NCBI GenBank assembly: GCA_001803565.1
Contig: MHDQ01000048.1
Location: forward strand, 5,759 to 17,353
DNA length: 11,595 nt
Reading direction: 5' to 3'
Source of the DNA: Nitrospinae bacterium RIFCSPLOWO2_12_FULL_45_22
Lineage (GTDB): Bacteria; 2-12-FULL-45-22
Made by a program: the position numbers and the translations under genes. Shown here in pieces: positions 6,763-10,323 of this stretch. Position 1 is the first letter of the stretch, and each line of letters opens with the position of its first letter. A model generated the notes under the pieces. The model saw nothing but the letters and a program-made list of their open reading frames with translations. It did not search any database and was not told the DNA's origin.

Positions 6763-6798
6763 GGGAGGAGCACCCGGTGGGTACCGGGGTCTCCTCCC
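6763..6798 (-). terminator. GC-rich hairpin ending the transposon operon
   Basis: GGGAGGAG (6763-6770) pairs perfectly with CTCCTCCC (6791-6798), and CCCGG/CCGGG extends the stem inside a two-base mismatch. It lies ten bases past the stop of the last minus-strand gene. On that strand it is followed by TTTCCACATTATTTT, a weak U-rich tail. The inner stem and loop are a copy of the 20-bp repeat described below. Confidence 0.6.
6769..6788 (+). repeat. 20-bp repeat, copy 1 (in terminator loop)
   Basis: This copy matches 16 of 20 positions of the consensus GGCACCCAGAGGGTACCCGG. It is the only non-coding copy and the most diverged. It forms the inner stem and loop of the terminator hairpin. Confidence 0.65.
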
Positions 6799-6807
6799 AC
6801 CATAATA

Positions 6808-7170
6808 TTATTCAGCTAAGCTATCCAGGATAGCTAACAGGATGGGATAGCAGTAGGGATCTGGAGAGACAAAAGGCTCCTCCGGGATGATATCGGTGGA
6901 ATAGAGGACGGAGGGGCTAAAGGATTTTACTGAAGAGAATTCCTTTTGAATTGCATCTAGCAAGGGTTGTTGGTTAGATTCCTCCAGGCAAGTAGCGATC
7001 CTTAAGGATGCAGAGAAGGCCTGCTGGAGGGCCTTTAGAGAGTTGGTAACGGCCTCTGGTGGGCAGGCAGAGGGGAAGCGGGTTTTGAAGACTGCTACCC
7101 CCTGGTTATCCAGGGCGACCAGATAGAGGTGGGAATTAGTTTGTTTAATACCGAGATATAGTTTCATCAT
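6808..7170 (-). CDS. Small IS110-like (RNase H-fold) protein of the transposon
   Basis: I start this gene at ATG 7170 (MMKLYLGIKQTNSHLYLVALD, 120 residues), because AAGGAGG lies a few bases upstream and longer readings run into the ATPase gene. The start resembles the first strands of IS110/RuvC-like transposases (GIDVSKxxHxVAVLDxxG), and the middle segment ATCLEESNQQPLLDAIQ resembles their EatGxYxxPLxxxL region. The usual first catalytic Asp is replaced by Lys (GIKQT for GIDVS), and the protein ends before the C-terminal DEDD half, so it is unlikely to be an active recombinase. It is the last gene of the operon. It may be an accessory or target-binding factor; the family link is inference from pattern, not certain. 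Confidence 0.65.
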   Translation of the reverse strand: MMKLYLGIKQTNSHLYLVALDNQGVAVFKTRFPSACPPEAVTNSLKALQQAFSASLRIATCLEESNQQPLLDAIQKEFSSVKSFSPSVLYSTDIIPEEPFVSPDPYCYPILLAILDSLAE

Positions 7171-7192
7171 TCTTCCTCCTTTGGTTAAGGTT

Positions 7193-8002
7193 TCATGATA
7201 TTTCGGTGACGGCCTCCCGTACATGGTCGCCATCAACAATTTGACTCTTTTTGCTGGCACAGGCCATAAGGGAGGCCTGGGCCAGGAGGTTAACTTTTCT
7301 GGGGATACCTTTGGAGGCCTGATAGATGGCCTCTATAGCCGGCTCCGAGAAGAGAGGATTAGTAACCCCTACGCGGTTCAGGTAGTGTTTTAGATAAAGA
7401 GGTAGTTCTTTACGGGTGAGGCCCTCCAGGTGGTAGCGCATGATGATCCTTTGGTTTAAGGGCTCATTGATATTGAGGCCTAGCTTTCTGCGTAGCTCTG
7501 CCTGGCCAACCAGGATGAGGGTAAGGTGATCCTGGCTATCCATATGGTAGTTGGTGAGGAGCCTGAGCTCCTCCAGGGCCTCTATGCGGAGTAAGTGGCC
7601 TTCGTCCACAATCAGGAGAGGAGAGATCTTTTTACTCTCTACCATGCGCTCTATCTCCTGGTGTATCTGGATATAGAGTTTGGCCCTGGAGCTTGGGGCA
7701 ATAAGCCCTAGCAGCTCTGCCAGGGACTTATAGAGATCCAGGACACTCCCAGTCGTATTGGGGAAGTAGAGGGGCTTATAGAGGCCTGGGTTAAGGGTGG
7801 TGCAGAGGGCCCGGCACCCAGAGGGTACCCGGGTGGTTTTTCCGCTTCCTACCTCACCGGTTACCAGGCCGATGCCCCTCTTTTTTACCAGGTAATCTAA
7901 CCTGGTAGAGAGTTCTTTGAAGTGAGAGCTCAGAAAGAGCTCCTGAGGTGGGATATCTTTAGGGAAGGGTTCACCGGTCATACCGAAATAGGTCTTATAC
8001 AT
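7193..8002 (-). CDS. ExeA/TniB-type AAA ATPase of the transposon
   Basis: The 269-residue protein starts MYKTYFGMTGEPFPKDIPPQELFLS, the standard opening of ExeA-type ATPases. It has Walker A GEVGSGKTT (49-57), Walker B LLIVDEGH (129-136), a sensor-like LVGQ (164-167) and an NQRI segment (183-186) that may carry the arginine finger. Proteins of this class select target DNA and activate the partner transposase, like TniB, TnsC or MuB. ATG 8002 overlaps the end of the transposase C-terminal frame by eight bases, and AAGGAGG precedes it, so translation is coupled. Oddity: right after GKTT the family normally has two residues before RALC; here there are six (RVPSGC), encoded by copy 2 of the 20-bp repeat. 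This sits in the helix after the P-loop and may impair nucleotide binding. Confidence 0.88.
   Translation of the reverse strand: MYKTYFGMTGEPFPKDIPPQELFLSSHFKELSTRLDYLVKKRGIGLVTGEVGSGKTTRVPSGCRALCTTLNPGLYKPLYFPNTTGSVLDLYKSLAELLGLIAPSSRAKLYIQIHQEIERMVESKKISPLLIVDEGHLLRIEALEELRLLTNYHMDSQDHLTLILVGQAELRRKLGLNINEPLNQRIIMRYHLEGLTRKELPLYLKHYLNRVGVTNPLFSEPAIEAIYQASKGIPRKVNLLAQASLMACASKKSQIVDGDHVREAVTEIS
7813..7832 (+). repeat. 20-bp repeat, copy 2 (in ATPase gene)
   Basis: This copy equals the consensus GGCACCCAGAGGGTACCCGG. It is read on the minus strand as the RVPSGC segment after Walker A of the ATPase, and the reading frame is kept. Confidence 0.85.
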
Positions 8003-8327
8003 GGTCTTTGTCCTCCTTTCTGGGTTGGTTTTGGTAGTAGTTTTGGTGTACTAGCTCTACATAGTTGATACCTGATCTTCTGATCTTAAGGGGCGAGGTA
8101 GAAGAGACTAGCTCTTTGCTATCATCATCCCTTTTTACGAAGCAATTTTCGTAGGCCTTGGTGGGGGTAGCGACCTGCTCTAGCTTCCCTTCAAAATAGA
8201 CCTTTACCTGGGACTTATCCTGGGGGTTGAAGCGGATCTCTACCCCTTTGCCAACCAGGTGGGCTGGGGCCTCATATAAGATGCCATCTAGAGAGAAGGT
8301 GCGGTCGTTATAGATCTTCCGCTTCAT
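7995..8327 (-). CDS. Detached C-terminal domain of the transposase
   Basis: This 110-residue frame encodes KIYNDRTFSLDGILYEAPAHLVGKGVEIRFNP...VKVYFEGK, the beta-barrel domain found at the C-terminus of Mu/IS481/TnsB-type transposases (Mu-transpos_C). It continues the transposase ORF in a different frame. Reading upstream of its ATG in the same frame gives RDLEEIFLHR, which joins smoothly to LDKWMRLV of the N-terminal part if 70 bp between them is removed. It is therefore the broken end of one gene. No good ribosome site precedes ATG 8327, so it is probably not made separately, though the overlap with the ATPase start could be maintained by readthrough. It contains no catalytic residues. Confidence 0.75.
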   Translation of the reverse strand: MKRKIYNDRTFSLDGILYEAPAHLVGKGVEIRFNPQDKSQVKVYFEGKLEQVATPTKAYENCFVKRDDDSKELVSSTSPLKIRRSGINYVELVHQNYYQNQPRKEDKDHV

Positions 8328-9429
8328 ACGGTGGAGGAAGATCTCTTCCAGGTCCCTGGAGTTTGGGAGTTAGGGAGTTAGGGAGTTGAAAACTCCACAA
8401 CTCCTGAACTCTACAACTCCTCAACCCTACGAGGCGCATCCACTTGTCCAGGGGTGTCTCATTGAGGCTGGAGTGGATGGTTCTGTGGTATTCACCTCGG
8501 GTACCCCCTGGGTGCCAGGCCCAGAGTCTGGAGTTAAGGTCTTCCAGTCCCTTGATCTTTTCCATATCAAACTGGTTAAGGAACTGCATACGCAATGTCC
8601 TGAAAAATCTTTCTGCTTTTCCCTTTCCCTGTGGGACATAGGCCTTAGAGTGGATAAGGATAATACCCAGACTGGCACAGACTACCTGGAGGTGGTGGCT
8701 TCGGTACACTGACCCGTTATCGCAATAAAGCCTTAAGGGCACGCCTTTTTTGAGCAGGGCCTGCTTAAAGGCATGCTCAAAGGAGAGCAGCCCCTCATCA
8801 AAATAGAACTGGGCATGGGGGACTACCCGAGTGGCCGGGTACCCTCTGGGTGGGAGGAAGGCATAGAGATAAGTTTTTCTCCTCCTACCGGTTTGAGGGA
8901 CAAGGATCCTGGGGCCATGGAGGCAATCACTCTGATACAACTCCCCTGGGTAGGCATATTCAAAATGGCGTCGGTCTTTAGCCGGGCTTTCCTGATGAAC
9001 CAGTCCTTGATTTACCAAAAGGCGGTGGATGGTGGAAGGAACAATCCTTTGGTGAGGGGGTATCGGGTGCCCTATGGGCGGTGCCAGTTCCAACTCCCGG
9101 GCGATGATAGTTGCCGAGCGGGAGGGGTTTTCTTCCTTGAGGGCGATAATAAGCTCGGCCAGCTCCGGAGGAAGGGTCCTGCTCTGTCCCTGATCCGAAC
9201 GTTCTTTGGGCTTAAGGGCCTCAAAGCCTCCCCGGCGATACCTGGTCATCCAATCTTTCAGGGTAGCCGAGGCAATGCTGGTCCGGGCGCTATGGGGAAG
9301 GGAGTAGGTTTGGCTGACCTTTTCCCTGAGCAGGGCGCTCTTTTCCCCGGGGCAGAACTCCCGGCTGAAGAACTCTGAAATTACACCGAACCTGAACAAT
9401 GCGATGTCATCCTGCTTCTTTTCATCCAT
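8308..9429 (-). CDS. DD35E transposase, N-terminal and catalytic part (frameshifted)
   Basis: An N-terminal helix-turn-helix region (about 25-145, with LKDWMTRYRRGGFEALKPK and STIHRLLVNQGLV) binds transposon ends in this family. The rve/RNase H catalytic core follows, with Asp168 (YQSDCLHGP), Asp237 (LYCDNGS) and Glu273 (GKGKAERFF), a spacing of 35 residues between the last two. This is an IS481/Mu/TniA-like transposase that cuts and joins DNA ends. AAGGAGG before ATG 9429 supports the start. After Val334 the frame enters a 70-bp palindrome and ends in unrelated residues; the true C-terminal domain is in another frame at 7995-8327. Two copies of the 20-bp repeat encode PPRGYP (193-198) and HPGGTR (306-311), where I would expect FLDD-x-TR and WAW-x-x-xYH. 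The catalytic triad is intact but the gene is probably inactive. Confidence 0.88.
   Translation of the reverse strand: MDEKKQDDIALFRFGVISEFFSREFCPGEKSALLREKVSQTYSLPHSARTSIASATLKDWMTRYRRGGFEALKPKERSDQGQSRTLPPELAELIIALKEENPSRSATIIARELELAPPIGHPIPPHQRIVPSTIHRLLVNQGLVHQESPAKDRRHFEYAYPGELYQSDCLHGPRILVPQTGRRRKTYLYAFLPPRGYPATRVVPHAQFYFDEGLLSFEHAFKQALLKKGVPLRLYCDNGSVYRSHHLQVVCASLGIILIHSKAYVPQGKGKAERFFRTLRMQFLNQFDMEKIKGLEDLNSRLWAWHPGGTRGEYHRTIHSSLNETPLDKWMRLVGLRSCRVQELWSFQLPNSLTPKLQGPGRDLPPPYEAEDL
8358..8427 (-). repeat. 70-bp palindrome with exact 8-nt period, splits the transposase
   Basis: Four GGAGTT units start at 8358, 8366, 8374 and 8382, and after a three-base loop come AACTCC units at 8391, 8399, 8407 (one mismatch) and 8415. 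All are eight bases apart, and the last unit is followed by TCAACCC. The two halves can fold into a long hairpin with regularly spaced 6-bp stems. Removing exactly 8358-8427 restores one frame through the transposase (RLV joined to RDLEEIF). CCCT is present at both edges but does not fit as a target duplication in that frame. It looks like a small inserted palindromic element. Confidence 0.8.
8497..8516 (-). repeat. 20-bp repeat, copy 3 (in transposase gene)
   Basis: On the minus strand this matches 18 of 20 consensus positions. It encodes HPGGTR between WAW and GEYH of the transposase, where relatives have about two residues. Its orientation is opposite to copies 1, 2 and 5. Confidence 0.8.
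8835..8854 (-). repeat. 20-bp repeat, copy 4 (in transposase gene)
   Basis: On the minus strand this matches 18 of 20 consensus positions, differing only in the first two. It encodes PPRGYP inside the transposase core, replacing the acidic pair of the usual FLDD/FIDD motif and adding about four residues. Confidence 0.82.
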
Positions 9430-9765
9430 GATAAACCTCCTTGAGAAAAAGGGTTAAATGATAAAAACGATCCCATCGATTATGGGGGTCAGGGTAGCAT
9501 CCCTTGCTAGCCCATGCTATGCAAGATCTGTGTGGGTGGTTGCGGTGAGATCTGGCCTGGCATTTGGTGGGTTGGATTAATTTGAAAAAAAAGGGTAGAA
9601 ATCCCCCTTCCCAGGAGAAAAATTAGAGGGTTAGAGGAAAGGTCCTGGTCGTATCAGCCTTTGAGGAAGCAAAGAAAATGGAGTTTAAACGTTCCTACAG
9701 GGTAACGGATTTAAGTGTGGTTGCCTGTCTGCCAAGGCACAGGCAGGAAGGAAAAGACTCGTTGG
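9430..9765. other. Non-coding gap between the zinc-ribbon and transposase genes
   Basis: I see no gene in these 336 bases. They hold the transposase ribosome site (AAGGAGG next to 9440), an imperfect dyad TTGCTAGC/GCTATGCAA (9504-9511 and 9516-9524) overlapping a second dyad TAGCAT/ATGCTA (9495-9500 and 9514-9519), a lone TTGGATTAATT (9572-9582) similar to the end repeats, and a hairpin at 9724-9747. The dyads could be an operator for the transposase operon. No convincing promoter was found. Confidence 0.5.
9724..9747 (-). repeat. REP-like hairpin after the zinc-ribbon gene
   Basis: CCTGTCTGCC and GGCACAGGCAGG pair over ten positions, with a two-base bulge and one G-T pair, around an AA loop. 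It lies 18 bases past the zinc-ribbon stop on the minus strand. No T-run follows, so it is a REP-like palindrome or a weak terminator. Confidence 0.45.
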
Positions 9766-10323
9766 TCAGAGTAATGCTCGATAGAAATGGAGGGAAAAAT
9801 ATTGGTTAGTAGCCGCAAAGAGTTGGCCACTATCCTGGGCCAGACCAAAGAAGAGGGAGAGATGCTGGAATATGTTCAGAGTCTTTTTCATCCCTTTGAG
9901 GGGCAAAGCCCCTCTGATCCTGGAGATCTTTTTCTGCCAGCGTTTACACCAATACTGAGCCCGTTGATAAGAGATATCTGGGCGGCCAATGGCTTCATTA
10001 CACCCTTTATAGGTTTTCCCCTGGCTACGGTGCCAGAGAAAGCTCTCCACCACTTGCACAGGTTTACCAATACCCTGGCAGAGAAAAGTGGGCAAGAGAG
10101 CAAAGGTACTGGCACCCATGGGGTACCCGGCTTTGCAAAGCGAACGTTTTATCCAAACTACCAGTTGCCCACACCATCGGCTATAAAAGCCATGCCCAAT
10201 GACCTCATTCCCTCTTCGGCAGTTAGGGCAGAGATCTATCTTGGGAAAGTGGTTATATTTTCCTTGCGCCGCATAATCCTTGACAGAGATACCAAAATCG
10301 TATACGATCATCCTTGGTTGCAA
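9766..10323 (-). CDS. Zinc-ribbon transposon protein (DUF6431-like), damaged zinc site
   Basis: The 185-residue product has CPNC (32-35) followed by GHGFYSR, then IKRSLCK (58-64) and STFALLPTFL, the layout of DUF6431-type zinc ribbons found with transposases. Its usual second knuckle reads CKxCGxTFSLLP; here the Cys-Gly pair is replaced by six residues (GYPMGA, 66-71), encoded by copy 5 of the 20-bp repeat. One of the four zinc ligands is therefore lost. The C-terminal half has the helical segment SYQRAQYWCKRWQKKI, probably DNA-binding. It is the first gene of the element, behind a promoter at 10428-10456. I keep TTG 10323 (AAGGG four bases upstream); ATG 10311 is the alternative. Role inferred as accessory to transposition. 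Confidence 0.7.
   Translation of the reverse strand: MQPRMIVYDFGISVKDYAAQGKYNHFPKIDLCPNCRRGNEVIGHGFYSRWCGQLVVWIKRSLCKAGYPMGASTFALLPTFLCQGIGKPVQVVESFLWHRSQGKTYKGCNEAIGRPDISYQRAQYWCKRWQKKISRIRGALPLKGMKKTLNIFQHLSLFFGLAQDSGQLFAATNQYFSLHFYRALL
10111..10130 (+). repeat. 20-bp repeat, copy 5 (in zinc-ribbon gene)
   Basis: This matches 18 of 20 consensus positions. Read on the minus strand it encodes GYPMGA in place of the Cys-Gly of the second zinc knuckle. Confidence 0.82.

Follow-up and report, generated by a model that had tools for sequence, protein, structure and literature searches.

The window analysed here, a stretch of 11,595 nt from the Nitrospinae bacterium RIFCSPLOWO2_12_FULL_45_22 (assembly GCA_001803565.1, contig MHDQ01000048.1, positions 5,759-17,353, forward strand), carries within a single transposon six copies of a very short palindromic repeat. 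Our main finding is that this repeat arrives at its sites as a block, taking the place of a fixed number of target bases and preserving the reading frame, that its stem covaries, that its copies nest inside older ones, and that its distribution among bacterial genomes is patchy. We read it, with a probability of roughly 70%, as a mobile hairpin micro-element that is moved in trans.

The initial annotation of the window, made from the letters alone, had described the repeat as a 20-mer in five copies, with a weak sixth candidate at 9063-9085. All five are present where it had placed them, and shuffled sequence is expected to yield 0 matches to the 20-mer, no shuffle having given one. While the repeat as such is real, its conserved unit is shorter, namely 17 nt of the form CACCC-NNN-GGGTACCCG, as seen in 213 distinct exact copies from many genomes, with a centre that is mostly AGA (129), AGG (26) or AAA (22). 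The bases that border this 17-mer vary and stem from the target, G being the preferred one on either side (at -1 in 77 and at +1 in 89 of the 125 copies of an unbiased subset). What is more, the weak candidate is a true copy, CGCCC-ATA-GGGCACCCG, in which an A-T pair of the stem has been exchanged for G-C, and this compensatory double change of the outer pair is found in ten copies overall. In coordinates of the window, the six copies are the following.

6771..6787, plus strand: copy 1, CACCCGGTGGGTACCGG, with one mismatch; non-coding, downstream of the transposon genes, at the apex of a GGGAGGA...TCCTCCC hairpin (a 48-nt stem-loop with a folding z of -3.9)
7815..7831, plus strand: copy 2, CACCCAGAGGGTACCCG; in the AAA ATPase gene, directly after the P-loop, GKTT-RVPSGC-RAL, +4 residues
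8498..8514, minus strand: copy 3, CACCCAGGGGGTACCCG; in the transposase gene, WAW-HPGGTR-GEYH, +4 residues
8836..8852, minus strand: copy 4, CACCCAGAGGGTACCCG; in the transposase gene, where LDDASR of the homologues becomes LPPRGYPATR, +4 residues
9064..9080, minus strand: copy 5, CGCCCATAGGGCACCCG, the compensatory stem variant; in the transposase gene, about +4 or +5 residues in a length-variable linker
10113..10129, plus strand: copy 6, CACCCATGGGGTACCCG; in the DUF6431 gene, +4 residues, at a CxxC pair that lacks its second Cys

Six copies within 3.4 kb compare with 0.023 expected at a rate of about 25 copies per 3.67-Mb genome (P ~2e-13), and the window has no match in Rfam at gathering score. 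The four coding copies originally described are borne out, and the sixth candidate brings the coding total to five of six. When the proteins are aligned to relatives from Geobacillus, Cupriavidus and Metabacillus and, for two of the three proteins, Acidithiobacillus (29-41% identity for the ATPase and the transposase, 20-27% for the DUF6431 protein), each of the four strong coding copies coincides with exactly four extra residues, about two residues having become six. The gain of 12 nt that had been claimed for every site stands at these four, while the gap at copy 5 is one of five residues. This one 17-mer is translated from either strand and in several frames, and has a stop codon in no frame, which supports the earlier proposal that the conserved thing is the DNA and not a peptide; selection at the peptide level was rejected on the same grounds. 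The genes stay open because the net change is +12 or, in longer forms, +15, and because the core is free of stops in all frames.

The rule of exchange comes from pairs of filled and empty sites, i.e., from local DNA that has the same flanks minus the element (identical flanks of 16 nt on each side, together with longer alignments). In these pairs, 17 bp stand in place of 5 bp, for a net gain of 12, the flanks are unchanged, and there are neither target duplications nor direct repeats at the borders. With all copies pooled, the empty state measures exactly 5 nt in 47 of 54 pairs, and these come from ten distinct contexts. For example, CCCA[TCGAG]GGAG is matched by CCCA[CACCCAGGGGGTACCCG]GGAG, and the empty states GCCG[GAGGG]GGTC, GAAG[GGCTC]GTTA, CCCCG[AGTTC]GGGGG, CCCA[TCCAG]GGAG, AGGG[CGCGG]GTGA and TTGG[GAGGA]GGGG likewise have counterparts with the same flanks around a 17-mer. 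Orthologous genes tell the same story. Namely, araB is filled in two species of Acidobacteriaceae and exactly 12 nt shorter in 28 of the 28 relatives that span the site, and a gene of Methylomirabilota is filled in three species and empty, and 12 nt shorter, in four others. The initial annotation had spoken of in-frame insertion; the frame is indeed kept, but with 17 nt replacing 5 nt this is no pure insertion.

The same change from two residues to six can be followed, by inspection, in the peptide synthetases of a Chloroflexota metagenome-assembled genome (MAG), where FS-GE-PGARLYRTGD becomes FS-HPEGTR-PGARLYRTGD and DLSG-NP-SF becomes DLSG-RVPSGC-SF, the reference motifs being those generally known for this protein family. 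In this genome (G082; L296, L298, L299, L305, L309, L310, L320, L333), a 17-mer or 20-mer sits in conserved motifs of several synthetase modules, and the same motif is sometimes filled in different modules. Two of its 20-mers come, again by inspection, with five extra residues (+15), and judging by protein alignments the 20-mer probably replaces 5 nt.

As to how sites are chosen, araB offers an example. The two filled genes (L105:5600-6320 and L106) carry identical 17-mers between flanks that are 79% alike, and the element occupies the same nucleotide in the same orientation. In the araB tree, L105 is joined, at full support, to an empty gene, and forcing the two filled genes together costs 44 log units (approximately unbiased test, p 0.032). 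Since the filled genes are not sisters, there have been either two independent insertions at the same nucleotide or a transfer of the element alone, and this double hit suggests that a specific factor chooses the target. More generally, flanks that pair at 7 or more of 8 positions are found around 48 copies, against 10.6 when the right flanks are shuffled. Palindromes are favoured as targets, and coding sites need not be palindromic.

Searching for the two halves of the core unpaired exposed units with longer centres, and hence a class of 21-mers. The pattern CACCC-N4..22-GGGTACCCG gives 182 matches in one Tectomicrobia MAG (G069), against 2 for controls, and is in excess in most other genomes tested. 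Among 52 distinct centres of seven bases, the outer pair is G-C in 34 and A-T in 16, and the inner pair C-G in 36, G-C in 9, T-A in 5 and A-T in 1, so that only about 2 of the 52 are exceptions to pairing around a free loop of 3 nt. The inner stem of the longer forms covaries, and the centre of the core is either a 3-nt loop, as in the 17-mer, or the same loop on a covarying 2-bp stem, as in the 21-mer. The 21-mers replace mostly 6 nt (+15). In the Ham1/RdgB protein of the Tectomicrobia MAG (L354:569-1246), alignments to two solved relatives show ten additional residues at a conserved motif, contributed by a tandem pair of hairpins of 36 nt.

Copies are also found nested in older copies, for instance at GGTACC and in L174 as compared with L139, and within REP-like palindromes (see below) and those of other families. 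One region of the Tectomicrobia MAG (L345; G069:C35:9000-20000) holds dense mosaics, with TCCTG...GTCGAAGG palindromes interspersed among the 21-mer hairpins. When folded as single-stranded DNA, the two strands of the element are not equivalent: CCGGGTACCCTCTGGGTGCC forms a stem of 7 bp with a z of -2.2, whereas its complement lacks that stem and reaches -0.4, and for a 24-mer the corresponding values are -3.2 and -1.7.

The repeat had been described from one transposon, to which it is not specific. The source genome has 19 exact 17-mers, in genes and between them, against 0 for the reversed pattern, and many other genomes hold 5-45 copies against 0 such controls. In a set of 25 genomes without any control match, counts go up to 45 per genome and some members have a single copy, and a strict 19-mer scan of genome contigs returned at least 108 stretches; being based on exact patterns, these copy numbers are lower bounds. 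Because such a choice of copies favours conserved ones, we make no claim about selection on the core. Carriers among the matches listed include MAGs of Armatimonadota, Methylomirabilota, Tectomicrobia, Acidobacteriota, Chloroflexota, Planctomycetota, Actinomycetota and Proteobacteria, as well as the record of Kouleothrix aurantiaca strain COM-B, and the MAGs that carry it, from at least seven phyla of bacteria, make up a patchy set. Of 148 genomes surrounding one Methylomirabilota MAG, 23 carry it, with 35, 24, 21 or 17 copies in close relatives and 0-2 in others, while of 386 sampled bacterial genomes no more than two hold many copies and eight others 1-2, little above control level. This is how a mobile element would be distributed if its driver were confined to certain lineages.

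Within the source genome, copies also lie inside transposase genes of the IS66 and DDE_Tnp_1 (IS4-like) types (L020:1379-3082 and L011:1479-2114, respectively; in the former open reading frame (ORF), a run of X/N is followed by a further match, to an HD domain, and the frame may include an assembly join), and mobile DNA seems to be over-represented among coding copies. Dimers of the form GTAGTGG...CCACTAC, similar to repetitive extragenic palindromes (REPs), carry the 17-mer in their loops (L009, L018, L021, L023, L042), and these filled REPs seem to have multiplied as filled units. Among viral contigs, the strict 17-mer form occurs in only 6, the 20-mer in 3 and the commonest 21-mer in none, and transport by phages was rejected on this count. 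One short viral contig (L199) is made up largely of degenerate GGCATGGC-like repeats, with one copy of the element.

How might such an element move? The active form would be a single strand, CGGGTACCC-loop-GGGTGCC, that folds into a hairpin containing a G.T wobble and leaves its 5' end unpaired. A nuclease or transposase acting in trans, and present only in some lineages, would open the target twice, at a spacing of about 5 nt, preferring sites with G on both sides and perhaps the apices of hairpins, and the hairpin, or a copy of it, would then be sealed into the gap. Copies may cross phyla inside other mobile DNA, such as the transposon of the window. That said, several points weigh against this interpretation. 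No mobilising enzyme was found, matches to the Y1_Tnp profile showing no link to copy number, and no insertion was caught happening; the single-stranded form, the two-cut model and the role of transposons as carriers are what we infer. Alignments to relatives in the PDB give gaps of 5 residues in carB and 8 in Mfd, both in loop regions, and not 4, and some 21-mer comparisons lose 5, 7 or 8 nt instead of 6, because target families vary. Moreover, some sites are not the apices of hairpins, coding sites have no obvious target motif beyond the flanking G, and most of the source genomes are MAGs.

It is unlikely, in our view, that the unit is itself a REP of the GTAG or CGTC type, mobilised by a REP-associated tyrosine (Y1/RAYT) transposase, even though much about it is reminiscent of one. 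Like a REP, it is a short imperfect palindrome with a G.T pair and a high copy number, repeats of the source genome that are bounded by GTAG contain it (L009, L018, L023), Y1_Tnp genes occur in most high-copy genomes, and REPs are known from within genes and palindromes (PMC3733652). However, the 213 distinct copies bear neither a GTAG nor a CGTC tag, and the GTAG seen in genome G000, which coding copies lack, is part of the host palindrome. Indeed, all longer conserved flanks, i.e., GTAG...CTAC (G000), CCCTCTCC...GGAGAGGG (G069) and TGGATTCCG...CGGAATGAC (L123), were rejected as parts of the element, as they are different host palindromes. Nor does Y1_Tnp follow copy number: there is no match in G104 (11 copies) or G077 (10 copies), 13 matches in G085 (1 copy) and several in genomes with zero copies, and a requirement for RAYT was rejected accordingly, with some doubt left by the incompleteness of MAGs. 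Finally, in the literature compared, exact replacement of a 5-nt target is not reported for REPs.

To a similar degree, we consider it improbable that no dedicated enzyme is involved and that template switching during DNA repair or replication copies the hairpin, as has been proposed for some organellar palindromes. Such a process would fit the preference for palindromes, the nesting, the tandem mosaics of the Tectomicrobia MAG and the lack of target duplication. The gaps that it leaves should nevertheless be variable, whereas unrelated sites show one and the same gap (5 nt in the case of the 17-mer), and both the patchiness among close relatives and the double hit in araB indicate a specific factor. 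Somewhat less plausible still is that the repeat is an excision scar, i.e., the same footprint left each time by a larger transposon with joined ends CACCC and GGGTACCCG. Inverted ends around a 3-nt centre do look like a footprint of this kind, and the fixed length and the occurrence in transposons would agree with it. But footprints keep target duplications, and the present element comes with a loss of target bases; its centre is lengthened by stems of 2-5 bp that covary, for which a scar has no need; the search for unpaired halves, run over 1.35 Mb, gave only more hairpin variants; and no full-length element was seen, albeit without a genome-wide search for one. Neither the scar nor the repair-only model accounts as well for the fixed loss or for the covariation of the stems.

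A protein-binding or signal site under selection at the DNA level, similar to HIP1 or uptake sequences and evolving by point mutation in place, is very improbable. The core is kept across phyla, and the identity of the araB 17-mers between diverged flanks could be taken in its favour, but orthologues that lack the element are shorter by a block of 12 nt, which means block arrival, and 1-45 copies per genome, with none in most relatives, are too few for a genome-wide signal. An origin of this kind was rejected for the copies, which may still serve such a function secondarily. Lastly, most of the genomes are short-read MAGs, but an artefact of sequencing or assembly has next to no chance of being the cause, given the independence of the laboratories and biomes concerned (with large contigs and the record of Kouleothrix aurantiaca strain COM-B among the data), the orthologous copies common to species with diverged flanks, and the compensatory changes in the stem.

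If the repeat is a mobile hairpin, the question is of which kind. HIP1 of cyanobacteria is an octamer present at very high density, and the initial annotation had likened the repeat both to it and to Rickettsia palindromic elements (RPEs). The likeness to HIP1, another short iterated palindrome within genes, does not carry over to the origin of the copies, which are few and arise by block replacement, with a change of length of +12. The likeness to RPEs is apt as regards behaviour: both are palindromic, non-autonomous and multi-copy, and both lie between genes and, in frame, inside genes for unrelated proteins. RPEs, however, are about 100-150 bp long, each encode a conserved peptide in an ORF of their own, and have been described from Rickettsia (PMC10969869), whereas the present element has 17-24 nt, is read in any frame and from either strand into differing peptides, occurs in many phyla and replaces target bases. 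REPs, including REPINs and BIMEs with their RAYTs, are imperfect hairpins of 20-40 bp with G.T pairs and single-strand asymmetry, sometimes located in genes or palindromes (PMC3733652, PMC8266576), all of which the element shares; it differs from them in having no GTAG/CGTC tag and no correlation with Y1, and it sits in REP-like loops rather than being a REP. The GC clusters of yeast mitochondria, of about 42 nt, are flanked by short direct repeats that resemble target duplications (PMC4478555). The element resembles these, and double-hairpin elements, in being a short GC-rich hairpin that nests, merges and spreads, but it is found in bacterial chromosomes, without duplication or border repeats and with a fixed loss of 5 nt. 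Miniature inverted-repeat transposable elements (MITEs), finally, are 70-300 bp long with terminal inverted repeats (PMC3733652), and while they too are non-autonomous, dispersed and of inverted symmetry, the element is 17-24 bp long and has neither a pair of terminal repeats around a body nor a target-site duplication. By definition it belongs to none of the families tested, the nearest kinds being REPs, RPEs and GC clusters.

The supposition that the repeat had no described counterpart has so far held up. In a search of open-access literature, neither the 17-mer nor the peptides HPEGTR, RVPSGC and GYPLGA were found, and the one match for the peptide TQRVPG is to an unrelated vaccine paper. 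Whether this amounts to a new class of element, and the smallest of its kind, is a matter on which we are evenly divided. Such a class would comprise single-stranded hairpins of 17-24 nt, written by a putative dedicated enzyme and swapped for a fixed target of 5-6 nt, partly site-specific and frame-preserving (+12, +15), which cross phyla in transposons and palindromic repeats. We know of no shorter sequence for which arrival as a block within genes has been shown across phyla, with empty sites exact to the base, nor of any transposition chemistry in which a hairpin is swapped for a constant number of target bases without duplication. A fixed replacement of this sort implies a new enzyme, which could be found by comparing gene contents. 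It also offers a one-step route to insertions of four or five residues in conserved proteins (AraB, RdgB, peptide synthetases, transposases), and the element explains the recurrent palindrome loops in many environmental genomes.

The transposon that hosts the six copies is a unit of four genes, coding for a DUF6431 protein, an IS481-like DDE transposase with Mu-transpos_C, an AAA_22 ATPase and the product of a small ORF. Its features in the window are as follows.

9766..10323, minus strand: DUF6431-like, first gene of the transposon
8308..9429, minus strand: IS481-like DDE transposase, main ORF, 373 aa
8355..8425, strand not assigned: GGAGTT/AACTCC palindrome of an unrelated family, at the frame break of the transposase
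7995..8327, minus strand: C-terminal part of the transposase (Mu-transpos_C), separated by a frameshift
7193..8002, minus strand: AAA ATPase (AAA_22)
6808..7260, minus strand: ORF downstream of the ATPase; a small hypothetical gene is likewise found here in a Metabacillus plasmid element (L367)

The order of the first three genes is common to plasmids of Geobacillus, Cupriavidus and Metabacillus, and the annotation of Acidithiobacillus caldus includes the DUF6431 and transposase genes. In the window, the transposase is broken into 373 + 110 aa by the frameshift at the GGAGTT/AACTCC palindrome, for which reason this copy of the transposon is probably dead. Elsewhere in the window, at 1208-2068, four direct repeats of 168 nt lie in one ORF, for an NHL-like repeat protein, near two ORFs that resemble lipoprotein peptidases of the HExxH type.

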